A DNA stretch of 64,000 bases from Thermodesulfovibrio sp. 3907-1M (GTDB lineage: Bacteria; Nitrospirota; Thermodesulfovibrionia; Thermodesulfovibrionales; Thermodesulfovibrionaceae), in assembly GCF_040450955.1 (NCBI RefSeq), contig NZ_CP144373.1, positions 1,158,486-1,222,485 on the forward strand, written 5' to 3'. The stretch's first letter is position 1, and the number at the start of each line of letters is the position of its first letter. The position numbers and the translations under genes are program-made. Under the pieces are notes generated by a model. That model made no database searches. It was not told the DNA's origin and saw only the letters and a program-made list of their open reading frames with translations. This document shows positions 34,233-41,734 of the stretch, in pieces.

Positions 34233-35288
34233 CTATACAGCATTTATTATTTCACCTGCCATTTCTTCAAGAGACACCACTTTATCAGCAATGCCAGCTT
34301 CCACAACTGCTTTTGGCATACCATATACTACACAGGTTTCCTCATTTTGTGCAAATACTCTTCCGCCTGTTTCCTTAATTTTCTTACATCCTTTTGCTCC
34401 GTCATTACCCATTCCTGTTAGTATTACTCCAAGACTTCTGCCAGGAAAACACTCTGCCACAGATAACATTAAAACATCAACGCTCGGACGATATATGAAC
34501 TCTTCTTTATCTTCTGAAATGGACACAAAGGTTTCAATTCCTCTTCTTTTAAGTCTCATATGTCCTCGGCCCGGAGCAATGTATACGATACCTGGTTTTA
34601 TAGGTTCTCCTTCTTCAGCTTCTTTTACTGAAAGCTGGCTCAACTGGTCAAGTCTTTCTGCAAAGGGCTTTGTAAAATTAGGTGGCATGTGCTGGGCAAT
34701 AACTACAGGAACAGGAAAGTCTTTTGGTAGCTTTGGAATAATCTCCTGAAGTGCTTTAGGACCTCCTGTGGAAGTTCCAATGGATACTATTCCGATCTTT
34801 CTTTCCGTAGTTACTCTCACTTTAGGAACTTCAACCTTGGGGATTTCTATTTTGGGCTCTGTGGCTTTGACTACTGGTCTTCTTTTTACAATCCCTCGTT
34901 TGCCAATTGTTTTAATCTTTTCAATCAACATTCCCTTAATCTTAACGATATTTACAGAAAGTTCGGCAAGATTTTTGGGTATAAAATCTATTGCACCAAG
35001 CTCCAGTGCTTCAAGGGTTACCTTTGCTCCTTCTGTTGTAAGAGAGCTAACCATAATAACAGGAACAGGGTATTTTTGCATTATCTCCTTTAATGCAGTT
35101 ATACCATCCATTCTTGGCATTTCCACATCCATTGTTACTACATCAGGCTTGAGTTCCTGAACCATCTGAACAGCTTCAACTCCATCCCTTGCTGTTCCAA
35201 TTACCTTAATTTCAGGGTCTTCCTGCAACATGGCTGTTATTGCCTTTCTCATAAAGGCTGAATCATCAACAACAAGAACCTTAATCAT
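34233..35288 (-). CDS. cheB: CheB, receptor methylesterase/glutamine deamidase
   Basis: 351 residues: a receiver domain (D54 phosphoacceptor in VTMDVEMPRMDG, DD at 8-9), a basic Pro/Val linker (about 115-160) and a CheB catalytic domain with the triad S173 (GTSTGGPKA), H200 (IAQHMPP) and D297 (MGNDGAKG). It removes methyl groups from chemoreceptors for adaptation, opposing CheR at 39006-39857. AAGGAG precedes the ATG. CheA lacks a P2 docking domain here, so CheB is probably phosphorylated without P2 capture. Confidence 0.96.
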   Translation of the reverse strand: MIKVLVVDDSAFMRKAITAMLQEDPEIKVIGTARDGVEAVQMVQELKPDVVTMDVEMPRMDGITALKEIMQKYPVPVIMVSSLTTEGAKVTLEALELGAIDFIPKNLAELSVNIVKIKGMLIEKIKTIGKRGIVKRRPVVKATEPKIEIPKVEVPKVRVTTERKIGIVSIGTSTGGPKALQEIIPKLPKDFPVPVVIAQHMPPNFTKPFAERLDQLSQLSVKEAEEGEPIKPGIVYIAPGRGHMRLKRRGIETFVSISEDKEEFIYRPSVDVLMLSVAECFPGRSLGVILTGMGNDGAKGCKKIKETGGRVFAQNEETCVVYGMPKAVVEAGIADKVVSLEEMAGEIINAV

Positions 35289-35300
35289 AGCTGAATCTCC

Positions 35301-36485
35301 TTAAAAACCAAATTCTTTAAGAAGCTCATCAACATCTTCCTGTGAAACTTTTTCAACTTCCTTTTTAGCTGCTTCCTTTTCTTCAATTTTCAACCCAAAA
35401 GTGGTTATAAGACGAAGAAGCTCTATCTCAAGGTCTCCTACAAGAGTAATCACCTTTTTAAGAACCTGTCCTGTCAGATCCTGAAAAGACTGAGTTGTAA
35501 GAATCTCTGTTAAATCATCTTCAAGAGAATTTTTAAACTCTCTAAGAAATTCTACACTTTCTGAGGGTCCTTGAAGCCCTCTTATGTGATTTGCAAGGTC
35601 ATCCATTTTTAAAATATATTTTTCAACAATCTCCATTGTTTTATTTGCTGCTTCCTCTGTTTTATCAATGACCATCTGAAGCTGATCAACTGCTCTTGGC
35701 ATCTGTTGAGTAGCAATTTCCCTAAGTCTTGGATCAAGGGCTTCTCTAAAGCTTTTTAAAGAATCATGAAGTTTCCGTGCAACTTTTCCCACTTCTTTAA
35801 ATAAATCACTCTGGCTTTTTTGAATTATGTTATTCATTATTCTGTCTGCCTGCTCATAGTCTCCCTGTGTTACTGCGTTCATAAAATTGGTTATTTCTTC
35901 CAGCAAAACATATTTTGGATCATCCTTTGCTATACCTTTCTTTTCGTAAAATTTTACAGGATCTATGACTTCAGTAACTGTTACTTCTCCACCAATTCCA
36001 CTGACTTTTTTCACAACCTCAACCCTGTCTCCCTCATCATGAACCTCTACTATTTCTTCTTCAAAAAGACTCTGGTCTTCTGACGGAATTAATTTTTTTG
36101 TATCCAGCAAAATAAGCAGTCTATCATCTAAACGGGCAACACCTTCTATCTGGGTCTGACCATGCTGCATAAACTCATCAGCAGGTTCAACACTTGTTTC
36201 ATCTATGTTTACCACTCCAGTAATATCATCTACCAGTGCACCAAAAGTTATCTTTCCTGAGGAAACAACAATTACTTTTCCTCCATTGTTTTCTTCTGGA
36301 ATACCAAGAATTCTTTTTAGATTTACAATTGGAATTACTCTACCACGAAGATTTGTAACTCCCTCAACATAAAAGGGTACCCCTGGCATTTTTGTAATTT
36401 GAGGAAGTTTAATAATTTCCTGAACTTTAAGAATGGGAACAGTATATTCGTTTTTTTCCAGAATAAAACCAATGTACTGTTTCAT
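35301..36485 (-). CDS. CheW-CheZ fusion: receptor coupling protein joined to CheY-P phosphatase
   Basis: 394 residues. Residues 1-140 are a CheW domain (YTVPILKVQEIIKLPQITKMP, VTNLRGRVIPIVNLK, ALVDDITGVVNI). After a linker, residues about 190-394 form a long helical region ending in CheZ hallmarks: QSFQDLTGQVLKKV with the catalytic pair D336 and Q340 (D143/Q147 in E. coli), and a C-terminal SQEDVDELLKEFGF equal to the CheY-binding tail. Phosphatase and receptor-array coupling are therefore on one chain. No separate cheW or cheZ is in this block. Both halves look intact. Confidence 0.9.
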   Translation of the reverse strand: MKQYIGFILEKNEYTVPILKVQEIIKLPQITKMPGVPFYVEGVTNLRGRVIPIVNLKRILGIPEENNGGKVIVVSSGKITFGALVDDITGVVNIDETSVEPADEFMQHGQTQIEGVARLDDRLLILLDTKKLIPSEDQSLFEEEIVEVHDEGDRVEVVKKVSGIGGEVTVTEVIDPVKFYEKKGIAKDDPKYVLLEEITNFMNAVTQGDYEQADRIMNNIIQKSQSDLFKEVGKVARKLHDSLKSFREALDPRLREIATQQMPRAVDQLQMVIDKTEEAANKTMEIVEKYILKMDDLANHIRGLQGPSESVEFLREFKNSLEDDLTEILTTQSFQDLTGQVLKKVITLVGDLEIELLRLITTFGLKIEEKEAAKKEVEKVSQEDVDELLKEFGF

Positions 36486-36503
36486 TTTCTCTCTCCCTTA
36501 AAT

Positions 36504-38204
36504 TTATTTTACAGTCAAAACTTTTCTTGAGAGCACGGCAAGGTCAAGAATCAACACAACCTTACCATCACCTGTTATAGTTGCTCCCATTATTCCACAT
36601 TCTTCAGAATCCACACCATTTATGGTTTTTATAACAATTTCTTCCTGTCCCAGAACAGAGTCCACAGATATGCAGAATCTCCTGTCTCCCACACTTGCTA
36701 CAAGAACATACTTTCTATCAGTTTCTGCATCACCTGTTGCACCCAGAATTTCATTTAACATGAAAAGGGGCAAAACCCTGTTTCTAATTGTAAGAACCCT
36801 CTGTCCTGTTACCTCTTTGATTTCATTGATGTTTATTCTTAATGTTTCTTCAATCATGGATTGAGGTATGGCATATGTTTCGTCTCCAACTTGAACCATC
36901 ATAGCCTGAATTATTGCCAGCGTAAGGGGTAAGCTTATCCTGAAAGTTGTTCCTTTATCTTTTTCAGTAAATATCTCTACATATCCGTTGAGTTTTGCCA
37001 CATTGGATTTAACAACATCCATTCCTACTCCTCTACCACTCAGTTCTGTTGAGACATCCTTTGTGGAAAAACCTGGCAGAAAGATTAAATTGATTAATGC
37101 CTCTTCAGACATTTTTTCAGCTTCTTCAAGGGTAATAAGCCCCTTTGTAATTGCCTTTGCTTTAACAGCTTCAACATTTATTCCTTTACCATCATCTGAG
37201 ATGTCTATGACAATCTGAGTTCCCTTCTGATATGCATTTATAACAATCTTACCCTTTGATGGTTTGCCCTTTGAGATTCTCTCTTCAGGGGACTCTATTC
37301 CATGGTCTATTGAATTTCTTATGATATGAACAAGGGGGTCTCCAATATGCTCAATGACTGATTTGTCAACCTCTGTATCTTCACCAATAATCTCAAGATC
37401 AACTTCCTTTCCAAGTGTTCTTGCAAGGTCTCTTACCATTCTCGGGAATTTTACAAATACCTTTTGAAGAGGCTGCATCCTCATCTTCATTACAGCAAGC
37501 TGAAGATCTGAAGTAACTCTGTCAAGAAATGCAGTTGTTTCAATAAGTCCTTCTATGTGTTCGTCGCCTGCATACTTTGCTTCAAGTTTGTTGGAAAGAT
37601 TAAGAAGCCTGTTACGAGCAAGAACTATCTCTCCTGCAAGATCCATAACCTTGTCTATTCTTTCGACATCAACCCTGAGAGTGGAGACTTCTTTTTCCTT
37701 TTCTTTTGGAGCCTGTGCAGTGGGTTCTCTGTGCTCTGGAGTGCTAACCTCCTGAGATTCAATTTTTTCAACCTTTTCAATAGCTTCAGTGGTTTCTGAA
37801 ACCTCTTTCTCAGAAGCTTTCTGAAGAGCACTGTCAAGTAAATCAAGAACTGGCTTAATATCTTCTTTGGGTTCTTCTTTTGCTTTAATATGAGAAATCA
37901 AGATTTTTAATGTATCTACTGCTTTAAGTATTGCATCGGTAAGTTCTGGCGAAATTGAGATCTCCCCTTCCCTGACTTTCTTCAGAATTGTCTCAGCTCT
38001 GTGAGCAACATCCACAACATTCTGAAATCCAAGAAATCCAGCAGCTCCTTTGAGAGTATGCATTCCTCTGAATATTTCGTTTATAATTTCAGGATCCTCA
38101 CCCTTACTTTCAAGCTCCACAAAAAGAGGATCAATCTGTTCAAGAATTTCCTCAGCTTCCACTATAAATTCATTTATTATCTCATCCATCTCATCAGCCA
38201 TCAT
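36504..38204 (-). CDS. cheA: CheA, chemotaxis histidine kinase lacking a P2 domain
   Basis: 566 residues. P1 has the phosphorylated H49 in [12 protein letters not shown] low-complexity Glu/Lys/Pro linker (about 130-172) takes the place of P2. P3 dimerisation ([17 protein letters not shown]), P4 ATPase ([27 protein letters not shown]) and P5 CheW-like (about 430-566) follow. P2 normally captures CheY and CheB. ATGATG at 38204 gives two possible starts; the second (38201) is better spaced from GGAGG. It overlaps cheY. Confidence 0.95.
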
Positions 38205-38605
38205 TGCCCTCCTTTAAGAGACGGTTTTTTCTGGGCGATTTTTTCAAGCTTTTCTTTAAGAACCTCTCCTGTAAAGGGTTTTACTATGTAGTTGTCAACG
38301 CCTGCTTTAATTGCCTCAATGACCCTCTCCTTTTCTGCCTCTGCCGTAACCATGAGAAATGGTATATCCTTAAGTTGAGGGTCACTTCTTATGTGTTTTA
38401 AAAGTTCTATCCCTTCCATTACAGGCATGTTCCAGTCCGAAACCACAAGACCATAATCACCACTTTTTAACTTTCTTAAAGCATCTTCTCCATTTTCTGC
38501 CTCTTCTATGTTTTCAAATCCAAGCTGTTTTAAAAGATTTTTTATAATTCTTCTCATGGTTGGGAAATCATCCACTACCAGAACTTTTATTTTAAAGTTA
38601 AACAT
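38201..38605 (-). CDS. cheY: CheY, chemotaxis response regulator
   Basis: 134 residues, a single receiver domain whose key residues fall at E. coli numbers: D12/D13, D57 ([12 protein letters not shown]), T87 (LMVTAEAE) and K109 (YIVKPFTG). The aromatic switch position near 106 is Tyr (NYIVKPF). This closely matches flagellar-motor CheY, so it is the likely substrate of the CheZ half at 35301-36485. It overlaps the cheA start. Confidence 0.93.
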
Positions 38606-38617
38606 CTCAAGCCCTCC

Positions 38618-38992
38618 TCACTTACTAAAAATTTTTTTTACTATTTTTTTCATGCTCTCTGTAATCTGTTCAGCATTTGTGGGCTTTACAAGATAGTCAT
38701 CCACGCCTGCTTCAAAGGCTCTCTTTTTTTCATCTTCATCAGCTTCTGTTGTTATCATAACCACAGGAATATAAGAAAAATCAGGATTTGCTTTTACCTG
38801 TTTTGTTAGCTCTATTCCATCCATATATGGCATATTCATATCTGTAAGAATTAAATTTATTTTCTCAAGTCCGAGTTTCTGTAATGCCTCAAGGCCATTT
38901 TCAGCAGTAACCACTTCATATCCTTTGCTTTTCAGTATTAAAGAAATCATTTTCCTTGTTGTTTTATCGTCATCCACTACAAGAATCTTCAT
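38618..38992 (-). CDS. Second single-domain CheY-like response regulator
   Basis: 124 residues from the ATG at 38992 (AAGGAGGG upstream; the open frame begins earlier without a site). Receiver residues are DDD at 7-9, D51 (LILTDMNMPYMDG), T81 (VMITTEAD) and K103 (YLVKPTN). It differs from the neighbouring CheY in the alpha4-beta5-alpha5 face. It may be a phosphate sink or address another target; paired CheYs are common where CheZ is unusual. Confidence 0.9.
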   Translation of the reverse strand: MKILVVDDDKTTRKMISLILKSKGYEVVTAENGLEALQKLGLEKINLILTDMNMPYMDGIELTKQVKANPDFSYIPVVMITTEADEDEKKRAFEAGVDDYLVKPTNAEQITESMKKIVKKIFSK

Positions 38993-39005
38993 AAAGCCCT
39001 CCTTA

Positions 39006-39857
39006 CTAAACTTTTTGATATACAACAACTTTACTAATAACAACAGGACGAAATGCTCTTGTTATGTTGTGTAGACTCTCTGAGGTTCCAACAAAAAGAT
39101 AGCCCTTTGGACGCAAAACATCATAAATAAGAGAAACTGCTTTCTTTTTTGCTTTGTCATCAAAATATATTAAAACATTTCTGCAAAATACCACATCCAT
39201 GCCTTTAAGCTGCTTGACTTCTCTTTCTTCTATAAGATTAATGTTCATAAATTTTACAATTGACTTTACTGTTTCAGAAAGAACATAAATACCACCTGAG
39301 TCTTTAAAATACTTTGCCATATACTGTGGTGGAACATTTCTTACAGAATAAGAGCCATACATACCTTTTCTTGCAGAGATTAAAACTGACTCACTTATAT
39401 CAGATGCATATATCTCTTTTCTGAAAGAGACTAACTCAGGTTTGTCAAGCAGTATCATTGCAATTGTATATGGTTCTTCTCCTGTTGAACATGCAGCAGA
39501 CCATATTTTTATATCCCTTCTTCCCATCTGAGTATTCTCTTTAATGATCTGGGGAATAAGATTATTTGAAAATACTTCAAACTGTTGAGGTTCTCTGAAG
39601 AAAAAAGTCTCATTTGTTGTGACCGCATCAAAAAGCCTTGCTATCTCATGTTTATTTGCGCTGTATTTTAAGAAATAAAGATAGTCTTCAAAATTACGCA
39701 GATTTTTTTCCTTTAAAATTCTGCTCAGCCTGTTTTCAAGAAAGTATTTTTTATTATCAGGCACATATATTCCTGTCTTTTCATAAATAAAATCCCTCAG
39801 TTGTTTAAAAACTTCATCATTTATTGTTGTAGAAGAGGAAGTAGTCTGAGTTATCAT
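39006..39857 (-). CDS. cheR: CheR, chemoreceptor methyltransferase
   Basis: 283 residues. The N-terminal helical domain has FKQLRDFIYEKTGIYVPDNKKYFLENRL; the SAM domain has NETFFFREPQQFEVF, IWSAACSTGEEPYTIAM (SAM loop) and VVFCRNVLIYFDD, the CheR signature. It methylates receptor glutamates. There is no pentapeptide-binding extension. Its ATG overlaps the HEAT gene stop by 4 bases. Confidence 0.96.
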   Translation of the reverse strand: MITQTTSSSTTINDEVFKQLRDFIYEKTGIYVPDNKKYFLENRLSRILKEKNLRNFEDYLYFLKYSANKHEIARLFDAVTTNETFFFREPQQFEVFSNNLIPQIIKENTQMGRRDIKIWSAACSTGEEPYTIAMILLDKPELVSFRKEIYASDISESVLISARKGMYGSYSVRNVPPQYMAKYFKDSGGIYVLSETVKSIVKFMNINLIEEREVKQLKGMDVVFCRNVLIYFDDKAKKKAVSLIYDVLRPKGYLFVGTSESLHNITRAFRPVVISKVVVYQKV

Positions 39858-41734
39858 ATTTTCTGCAAAACCTCCTCTATTTTTTCTTTAACTTCCCTGT
39901 CAGGATGCTCTCTTTTAGAGGCAAGAATGTCATAAACCTGAGCACCACCTATTTCTCCTAAAGCCTCAACTGCAGCAATTACAACAGGAGGGAATGGATC
40001 GTCCAAGCATGGGATTAGTTTTTCCATTAAAATTTCTGGGTCACAGGCTTTACTGATTGATTTTACAGCATAGTATCTTATCCATGGGTCTTCATCTTCA
40101 AGACATTGAAACAATACATCAGAACAGAAGCTGGCTTCTCCAAGAGCTAAAATAGCTGCTTTTTTTAGCTCCTTATCATCAGACCTAATAAATTCAAGAA
40201 TTTTGGCTATAGCTTCTTCTGTAGCAACTCTGCCAAGTCCATATATGGCTGCTTTTTGCACTTCCCTGTCTTCACACTTAGAAAGCATATCTAAAATATC
40301 TATTGAATAAGTCATTCCTGCCAGAGCCTGCTTTACTTCTTTTTTATAAGACTTTAAATTTTTTAAAAATCTCTCCTGATCAATTGATATAAGAGCTGAG
40401 ACAATTGCTTCAATAATGTCTGGATATGCTTCTCTTTCAAGCAAATGATAAAGAGGCTCATAGGCTTCTGGAACTCTTATCATTCCAAGAGCTTCTATCG
40501 CTGCCTTTCTCACATTTGCGTCCTGATCTTCATTGATTTTTTTAATAAGAGGCTTAATTGCTTGTGTGCTTCCAATTTCGCCAAGTGCCTTTGCAGATGC
40601 TATTCTTATATCCCTTTTTATGTCTTCAAGAAGTCTTATGAGAATCGGGACAGCTTTTTTACTCCTTAATTTACCAAGCAGTTTTATAACAAAAGCTTTT
40701 GCTCTATACTTAAGTTTGTTTTTTTCAATCATTGAGATGAGTTCATCTTCTGAGTCTATTGAAAGCAAAGCTTCCCCTAAAGCCTCTATTTTTTCTTCAT
40801 AATCAAAACATCCTGGGTCAAGAGCTCCAGCTTCTTCCACAATTAATGGAACAGCCTCTACAAGATTTAGTAGTTTCACTCCTTTCAGAGCTATAAGCCT
40901 ATCCTCCCATTCTTCTTCTTTAAAAATTGAAAGAACTTCTTCTTTTATTTCCTGTCCATCAGGAATTATTCCTATTCTTATTAAAGCTTTTACAATCTCT
41001 TTCTTTTCATCTTTTGTGGCAACAGGAAAATACTTTAAAAGAGGCTGTGAAACCTTTTCAGTTCCTATTTTCCCGAGAGTATCAATTGCTTCTGATTTAA
41101 TTAAGAGTGAGTCTGTACTTAAAAGAAGCTCACCAATTTTATCCACAGCCTCTTCTGCCTTGAGTTGAGCAAGAGCCTGTAAAACATAAAAGACAACCCA
41201 TTCTTCATCCTGCAGATTTTCTATTAATGCAGAAATAGCCTCTTTATATCCGAGTTCTCCCAGTGCATGGGCAGCTGCAGCCCTAACATTTCCATTAGGA
41301 TCTTTAAGCAGAGGAATAATTTTTTCACCATCAAATCCTTTTTTTATGTCTGAAATCAAATCAAGAGCAAACTTTCTTATGTCAGGGTCTTTATCCTTAA
41401 GAAGTTTGTAAATAAGCTGTGGTGCTCTGTGCCCAATTTCTTTAATTATTAAAATAGCAGTATTCCTTAAATATGCCTCTTCTTCTCTTAATAAAGGAAT
41501 GACCATGTAAGTAACAACTTCTCCTGAATTTATTAAGAATCTGTTTCCACTACCAAGAGAGATTAGAGACTGAGTTGCTGCTTCCTGAACTGCTGTATTT
41601 TCATCTTTTAATGCCTTGATTAATGGATAAACTGCTCTCTCATCTGCACTGCCAAGCTCTTCTGCTGCCTGTCTGCGAACTGATGGTTCAGGATCATTGA
41701 GTAGTTTAAAAACTATCTGCTTTATATTTTTCAT
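39854..41734 (-). CDS. HEAT-repeat protein heading the chemotaxis operon
   Basis: 626 residues made almost entirely of about 17-19 HEAT/PBS-lyase-like helical repeats of about 31 residues. Examples are DPEPSVRRQAAEELGSADERAVYPL-type units recurring with A..ALGE(I/L)G...AI..L and D(P/E)...R.AA. No signal peptide or membrane segment. HEAT solenoids are protein-binding scaffolds. Overlap with cheR and the dedicated promoter suggest it works with the receptor-modification or signalling proteins; the partner is unknown. Confidence 0.87.
   Translation of the reverse strand: MKNIKQIVFKLLNDPEPSVRRQAAEELGSADERAVYPLIKALKDENTAVQEAATQSLISLGSGNRFLINSGEVVTYMVIPLLREEEAYLRNTAILIIKEIGHRAPQLIYKLLKDKDPDIRKFALDLISDIKKGFDGEKIIPLLKDPNGNVRAAAAHALGELGYKEAISALIENLQDEEWVVFYVLQALAQLKAEEAVDKIGELLLSTDSLLIKSEAIDTLGKIGTEKVSQPLLKYFPVATKDEKKEIVKALIRIGIIPDGQEIKEEVLSIFKEEEWEDRLIALKGVKLLNLVEAVPLIVEEAGALDPGCFDYEEKIEALGEALLSIDSEDELISMIEKNKLKYRAKAFVIKLLGKLRSKKAVPILIRLLEDIKRDIRIASAKALGEIGSTQAIKPLIKKINEDQDANVRKAAIEALGMIRVPEAYEPLYHLLEREAYPDIIEAIVSALISIDQERFLKNLKSYKKEVKQALAGMTYSIDILDMLSKCEDREVQKAAIYGLGRVATEEAIAKILEFIRSDDKELKKAAILALGEASFCSDVLFQCLEDEDPWIRYYAVKSISKACDPEILMEKLIPCLDDPFPPVVIAAVEALGEIGGAQVYDILASKREHPDREVKEKIEEVLQKI

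Follow-up and report, generated by a model that had tools for sequence, protein, structure and literature searches.

Does the frame that joins a CheW domain to the phosphatase CheZ in the chemotaxis operon of Thermodesulfovibrio sp. 3907-1M encode a genuine protein and, if so, what would the CheW part do for the phosphatase? The frame lies within a 64,000-nucleotide stretch of this organism's DNA (the window, from whose first letter positions are counted), and the genome is a single contig of 1.94 Mb. Arguments on why CheZ is located at the receptor array rest largely on E. coli, in which its tethering is a detail of CheA-short: according to PMC7750401, CheZ reaches the array through an aromatic pair at the tip of its helical hairpin (residues 97–98) that binds CheA-short.

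The fusion gene and its conservation

The gene and its parts are as follows.
36491–36498, minus: Shine-Dalgarno-like AGGGAGAG, read directly, 5 bases ahead of the fusion ATG
35301–36485, minus: cheW-cheZ fusion gene, ATG start, 394 aa, one intact frame, conserved over its whole length both in the genus and class-wide
36081–36479, minus: CheW domain, residues 3–135 (PF01584, E 2.5e-35; matched by the CheW structures of E. coli and T. maritima)
36417–36419, minus: E23, equivalent to Glu38 of E. coli CheW by structure alignment, invariant in 51/51 fusions
36345–36347, minus: R47, equivalent to Arg62 of E. coli CheW by structure alignment, invariant in 51/51 fusions
35928–36071, minus: linker between the CheW and CheZ parts, residues 139–186
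35304–35927, minus: complete CheZ, residues 187–394 (PF04344, E 2.4e-31; alignment with plain CheZ)
35466–35480, minus: DLTGQ with catalytic D336 and Q340 (D143/Q147 of E. coli), from alignment with 1kmi, invariant in 51/51 fusions
35304–35345, minus: C-terminal CheY-binding tail SQEDVDELLKEFGF, ending in GF, read directly and conserved in fusions

The sequence-only reading had seen CheW and CheZ in one frame, with a catalytic pair at D336/Q340 and a CheY-binding tail, and the profile searches and alignments bear this out. Its coordinates are correct, and the strand, which it left unstated, is minus; the plus strand at 35301–36485 has many stops. Both Pfam matches are far above their cut-offs: PF01584 scores 121.6 bits (cut-off 23.5) with profile positions 1–136 of 138 covered, and PF04344 matches residues 227–394 with 109.6 bits (cut-off 30.7). 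The latter match is split in two, which agrees with the shorter hairpin tip of the genus; relatives have a longer tip, and in L054, for example, the match runs without a break. Residues ~190–226, upstream of the Pfam boundary, align with the N-terminal helix of gammaproteobacterial plain CheZ, which indicates that the CheZ part is complete; CheZ similarity is thus present in residues 190–394, and the layout comprises the N-terminal helix, a shortened helical hairpin, the catalytic helix and the tail. In the E. coli CheZ structure 1kmi, the segment FQDLTGQV pairs with FQDLTGQV of the fusion and so places the catalytic residues. No Pfam match to Response_reg occurs in the fusion protein, and inspection of the linker by eye gave no convincing Shine-Dalgarno sequence and start codon that could serve as an internal start for free CheZ. 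An AlphaFold model made from the window's fusion and nine close relatives had a pLDDT of 45 and a pTM of 0.26 and was discarded.

Nothing except the unusual layout speaks for an assembly or sequencing error that merged two genes, and this explanation is refuted by the occurrence of the frame, joined in the same way, in 14 genomes of the genus and about a hundred of the class. In 14 of 16 genus genomes, the window's own included, the frame is full length, without internal stops and 76–100% identical, which excludes a frameshift join; the two genomes without a full-length frame are only 56 and 63% complete. In the class (206 genomes), 105 of the 113 strong CheZ matches (E below 1e-30) sit in frames of at least 390 aa, the frame lengths being transcribed by hand. 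The eight shorter frames comprise five that reach a contig end, one that begins at base 7 of its contig, a 102-aa piece, and one plain CheZ in genome G340. Comparison with genus members gave dN/dS values of 0.04–0.09 in the CheW, linker and CheZ parts alike where dS was estimable, several comparisons being saturated; all three parts are under purifying selection in the genus. The fusion is real and conserved.

The gene in G340 (L131:1272–2009), the one real plain CheZ of the class, starts with a remnant of the linker; G340 is a small, incomplete draft, and the gene lies on a short contig without cheA and cheR. Second CheW-CheZ copies, ~49% identical to that of the window, were found at L136:2543–3739, L137:2903–4093 and G297:C77:16199–16813; their host genomes hold another copy too, and no che genes occur in the retrieved neighbourhood. 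A scan of named genomes returned the fusion only in Thermodesulfovibrio relatives and otherwise weak CheW matches, and in the plasmid collection no record covers 80% of the fusion. The sequence-only reading knew of no described example of this layout. No paper on a CheW-CheZ protein was found in our search either, which had limited coverage of subscription journals; the architecture may already be catalogued in domain databases. The layout is not a one-off but near the rule for CheZ in the class.

Operon context and CheA

The genes surrounding the fusion are as follows.
39006–39857, minus: cheR (Pfam)
38618–39043, minus: second single-domain response regulator (Pfam), syntenic across the class and adjoining cheY
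38201–38605, minus: cheY, presumed substrate (CheY model 177.9 bits, slightly below its cut-off of 189)
36504–38204, minus: cheA with P1, P3, P4 and P5 but no P2 (Pfam), 18 bases upstream of the fusion gene
34233–35288, minus: cheB (Pfam), directly downstream of the fusion

Across the class the order is flhF-flhG-fliA-HEAT-repeat gene-cheR-cheY2-cheY-cheA-cheW/cheZ-cheB, with minor shuffles. The gene of the HEAT-repeat protein (626 aa; 39854–41734, minus) separates fliA from cheR in almost every class member examined, and the fusion might act on the second CheY-like regulator (38618–39043) as a further substrate. In both genomes of family f14 (L113, L114), the 16-kb stretch around the fusion holds no further che gene. 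Several relatives carry a separate free cheW further along the same operon as the fusion. The Thermodesulfovibrio che operon has no cheW besides the fusion, and a typical free CheW is encoded about 0.67 Mb away (G000 1869495–1869905). The window's genome has one CheZ only, no CheC or CheX was found in it, and it encodes two CheA proteins (counted by the dimerisation domain) and has 12 receptor signalling-domain matches. A second chemosensory cluster at 99.7–110 kb of the same genome (L095, L097, L102) includes a CheA-type ORF of 883 aa together with one protein that has three CheW domains and one ORF that has two receptor signalling domains; it fits the F9 layout (DosM, CheW3) of PMC9321776.

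The CheA of the operon had been noted to lack P2, and this is so: none of the 19 CheA proteins scanned with Pfam, the window's included, has a match to P2 or a CheY-binding domain. In the window's CheA the stretch between P1 and P3 is ~75 residues long and rich in E, K, S and P. A link between P2 loss and the fusion is rejected. Three of the 19 come from lineages with plain CheZ and likewise lack P2, and more than 50% of CheA proteins are without this domain (PMC10782961), so that its absence is real but uninformative on the fusion. In five other CheA proteins (L120:6656–8560, L121:9457–11361, L124:5294–7210, L105:8402–10342 and L112:2215–4086) repeated LGEILV..GL....AL..Q motifs lie between P1 and P3; this region is at the usual P2 site and has no Pfam match.

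Origin of the fusion and character of its CheW part

The sister lineages L120 and L121 have the order cheR-cheY-cheZ-cheA-cheV-cheB-cheW with a CheZ of 220 aa, and L124 agrees over the stretch covered. Because plain cheZ lies there between cheY and cheA, in the same operon region as the fusion, the joining is one in which CheZ gained a CheW. The fusion stands in for cheZ, and cheW is not replaced. In the CheW tree, the fused CheWs of the class all form a single group (96/94), which includes one free paralogue (L118) and is separate from the free CheWs that these genomes encode; the free CheW of the window's genome clusters with those encoded in the operons of relatives.

Outside the class, family f20 has a CheW-CheZ fusion of its own (L067, L070, L071). 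Its fused CheWs fall apart from those of the class, weakly next to the free CheW of their own genomes, and its CheZ lies in another deep group of the CheZ tree, with the plain CheZ of the sister lineages; one f20 member, L087, carries a plain CheZ. The f20 fusion looks to have arisen independently of that in the class. A single origin of all fusions is rejected for the CheW part (p-AU 0.002 for a one-clade constraint). Long branches are present in both the CheW and CheZ trees, and two origins are therefore what the sampled set supports and not proof.

In family f28, also outside the class, CheZ is preceded by a degenerate CheW-like region that in two members (E 8.7e-5 and 2.7e-4) falls narrowly short of the cut-off of the Pfam CheW profile; by profile it aligns with CheW over 132 columns (E 2e-5, probability 77%) and lacks the Glu38/Arg62 pair. 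This degenerate region, together with the loss of the CheW part in G340, would suit a relic that has no binding role and is tolerated ahead of CheZ. For the class such a relic is very improbable, because the equivalents of Glu38 and Arg62 never vary and the CheW part has a dN/dS of 0.05–0.07. In E. coli CheW, the alignment of the receptor site with the kinase site is maintained by the salt bridge between these two residues (PMC3828127).

The fused CheW is nevertheless a distinct subfamily. Thirteen positions that are nearly fixed in free CheW differ in it (for example, P17 for D, I25 for N, G90 for E and N93 for R), and it may consequently bind only part of CheW's usual partners; these changes fit an adapted docking module and fit a duplicate of the main coupler less well. 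They bear on the possibility that the flagellar system uses the fusion as its main coupling protein, with kinase activation depending on it and CheZ riding along. The lack of any other cheW in the Thermodesulfovibrio che operon and the retention of the Glu38/Arg62 equivalents are in keeping with such a role, and the sequence-only reading had described the phosphatase as covalently tied to the coupling protein. We regard this role as unlikely, since the genome encodes a typical free CheW at another site, which in the tree joins the free CheWs from the operons of relatives, relatives have the fusion and a free CheW in one operon, and the fused CheW is altered at positions fixed in free CheW. With a free CheW in the genome, the fused CheWs in a paralogous clade of their own and the gene at the site of plain cheZ in relatives, the CheW part of the fusion is unlikely to be the principal coupling protein of the cell.

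Probable docking of the phosphatase and comparison with known systems

The reading that we prefer, with a probability of roughly 0.7, is that the CheW part serves to dock CheZ, the one CheY-P phosphatase recognised in the cell, in the receptor array. The protein would be the flagellar CheZ with an N-terminal CheW-type docking module, which would enter the receptor/CheA/CheW lattice beside ordinary free CheW; the CheZ dimer would thereby be held at the array through a linker of ~50 residues, and the D336/Q340 site would hydrolyze CheY-P near CheA, where it is produced. Source and sink of CheY-P would then be at one place, as enterics achieve through CheA-short. We infer array binding, dimerisation, phosphatase activity and the effect on the CheY-P gradient. 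The observations that support docking are the intact fusion, the kept functional residues, the position at the operon place of plain cheZ, the free CheW, the lack of CheC and CheX, and the repeated origin; as a counterpoint, G340 has CheZ without CheW, and the sister lineages manage without a fusion. As CheZ is a dimer in E. coli, a dimer of the fusion would have a pair of CheW domains, with which it could contact two positions of the lattice.

In the alignment of 51 fusions, no aromatic pair for docking to CheA-short was seen at the hairpin tip, and the covalent CheW part is plausibly the obvious substitute for this missing contact, as the sequence-only reading had suggested. That reading also proposed that CheY-P production and removal could both be confined to the array. 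The removal step would indeed be placed there, but CheY-P itself cannot be so confined because it must reach the motor.

Alternatively, the CheW part may be a regulatory input, through which contact with receptors or CheA would set CheZ activity by signalling state and drive kinase and phosphatase oppositely; in addition, the paired CheW domains of a dimeric fusion could brace neighbouring array units. If this were true, receptors would control both kinase and phosphatase in a layout that evolved at least twice. The linker, which most of the class keeps at a nearly constant length (47–51 aa) and which is under purifying selection in the genus, the conserved residues peculiar to the CheW subfamily and the repeated origin are all compatible with such control. 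Some members, however, have longer (63–104 aa) or shorter linkers, and we consider allosteric regulation through the CheW part rather improbable beside simple docking.

The fusion is catalytically complete by sequence and probably works as an array-docked phosphatase. The tether would then have become covalent in an entire class, and a second lineage seems to have done likewise independently. The convergence, with fusions arising at least twice, suggests that selection favours a phosphatase placed at the array. A natural route is also apparent, in which a paralogous CheW is joined to CheZ and the ordinary CheW is retained, and the layout is modular: removing the CheW part would free the phosphatase and leave CheA untouched.

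The closest comparison is with E. coli CheZ and CheA-short, which share with the fusion the CheZ family, the catalytic D/Q pair, the tail and the presumed outcome of a phosphatase at the receptor cluster (PMC7750401); the tether there is a non-covalent contact of the hairpin tip with CheA-short, whereas the fusion lacks the tip aromatics and has a CheW domain as its covalent tether. In epsilon-Proteobacteria, ChePep with CheZ is another dedicated means of polar CheZ placement (PMC7750401), but ChePep is a separate, unrelated protein. CheW3 of F9 systems, with three tandem CheW domains and present in the window's genome at 107.0–108.4 kb, is likewise a multi-domain CheW protein but has no phosphatase. 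CheV resembles the fusion as a second CheW-type adaptor that brings a signalling domain into the array, but that domain is a phosphate-accepting receiver, whereas in the fusion it is a phosphatase; the sister lineages examined have CheV and a plain CheZ within one operon.
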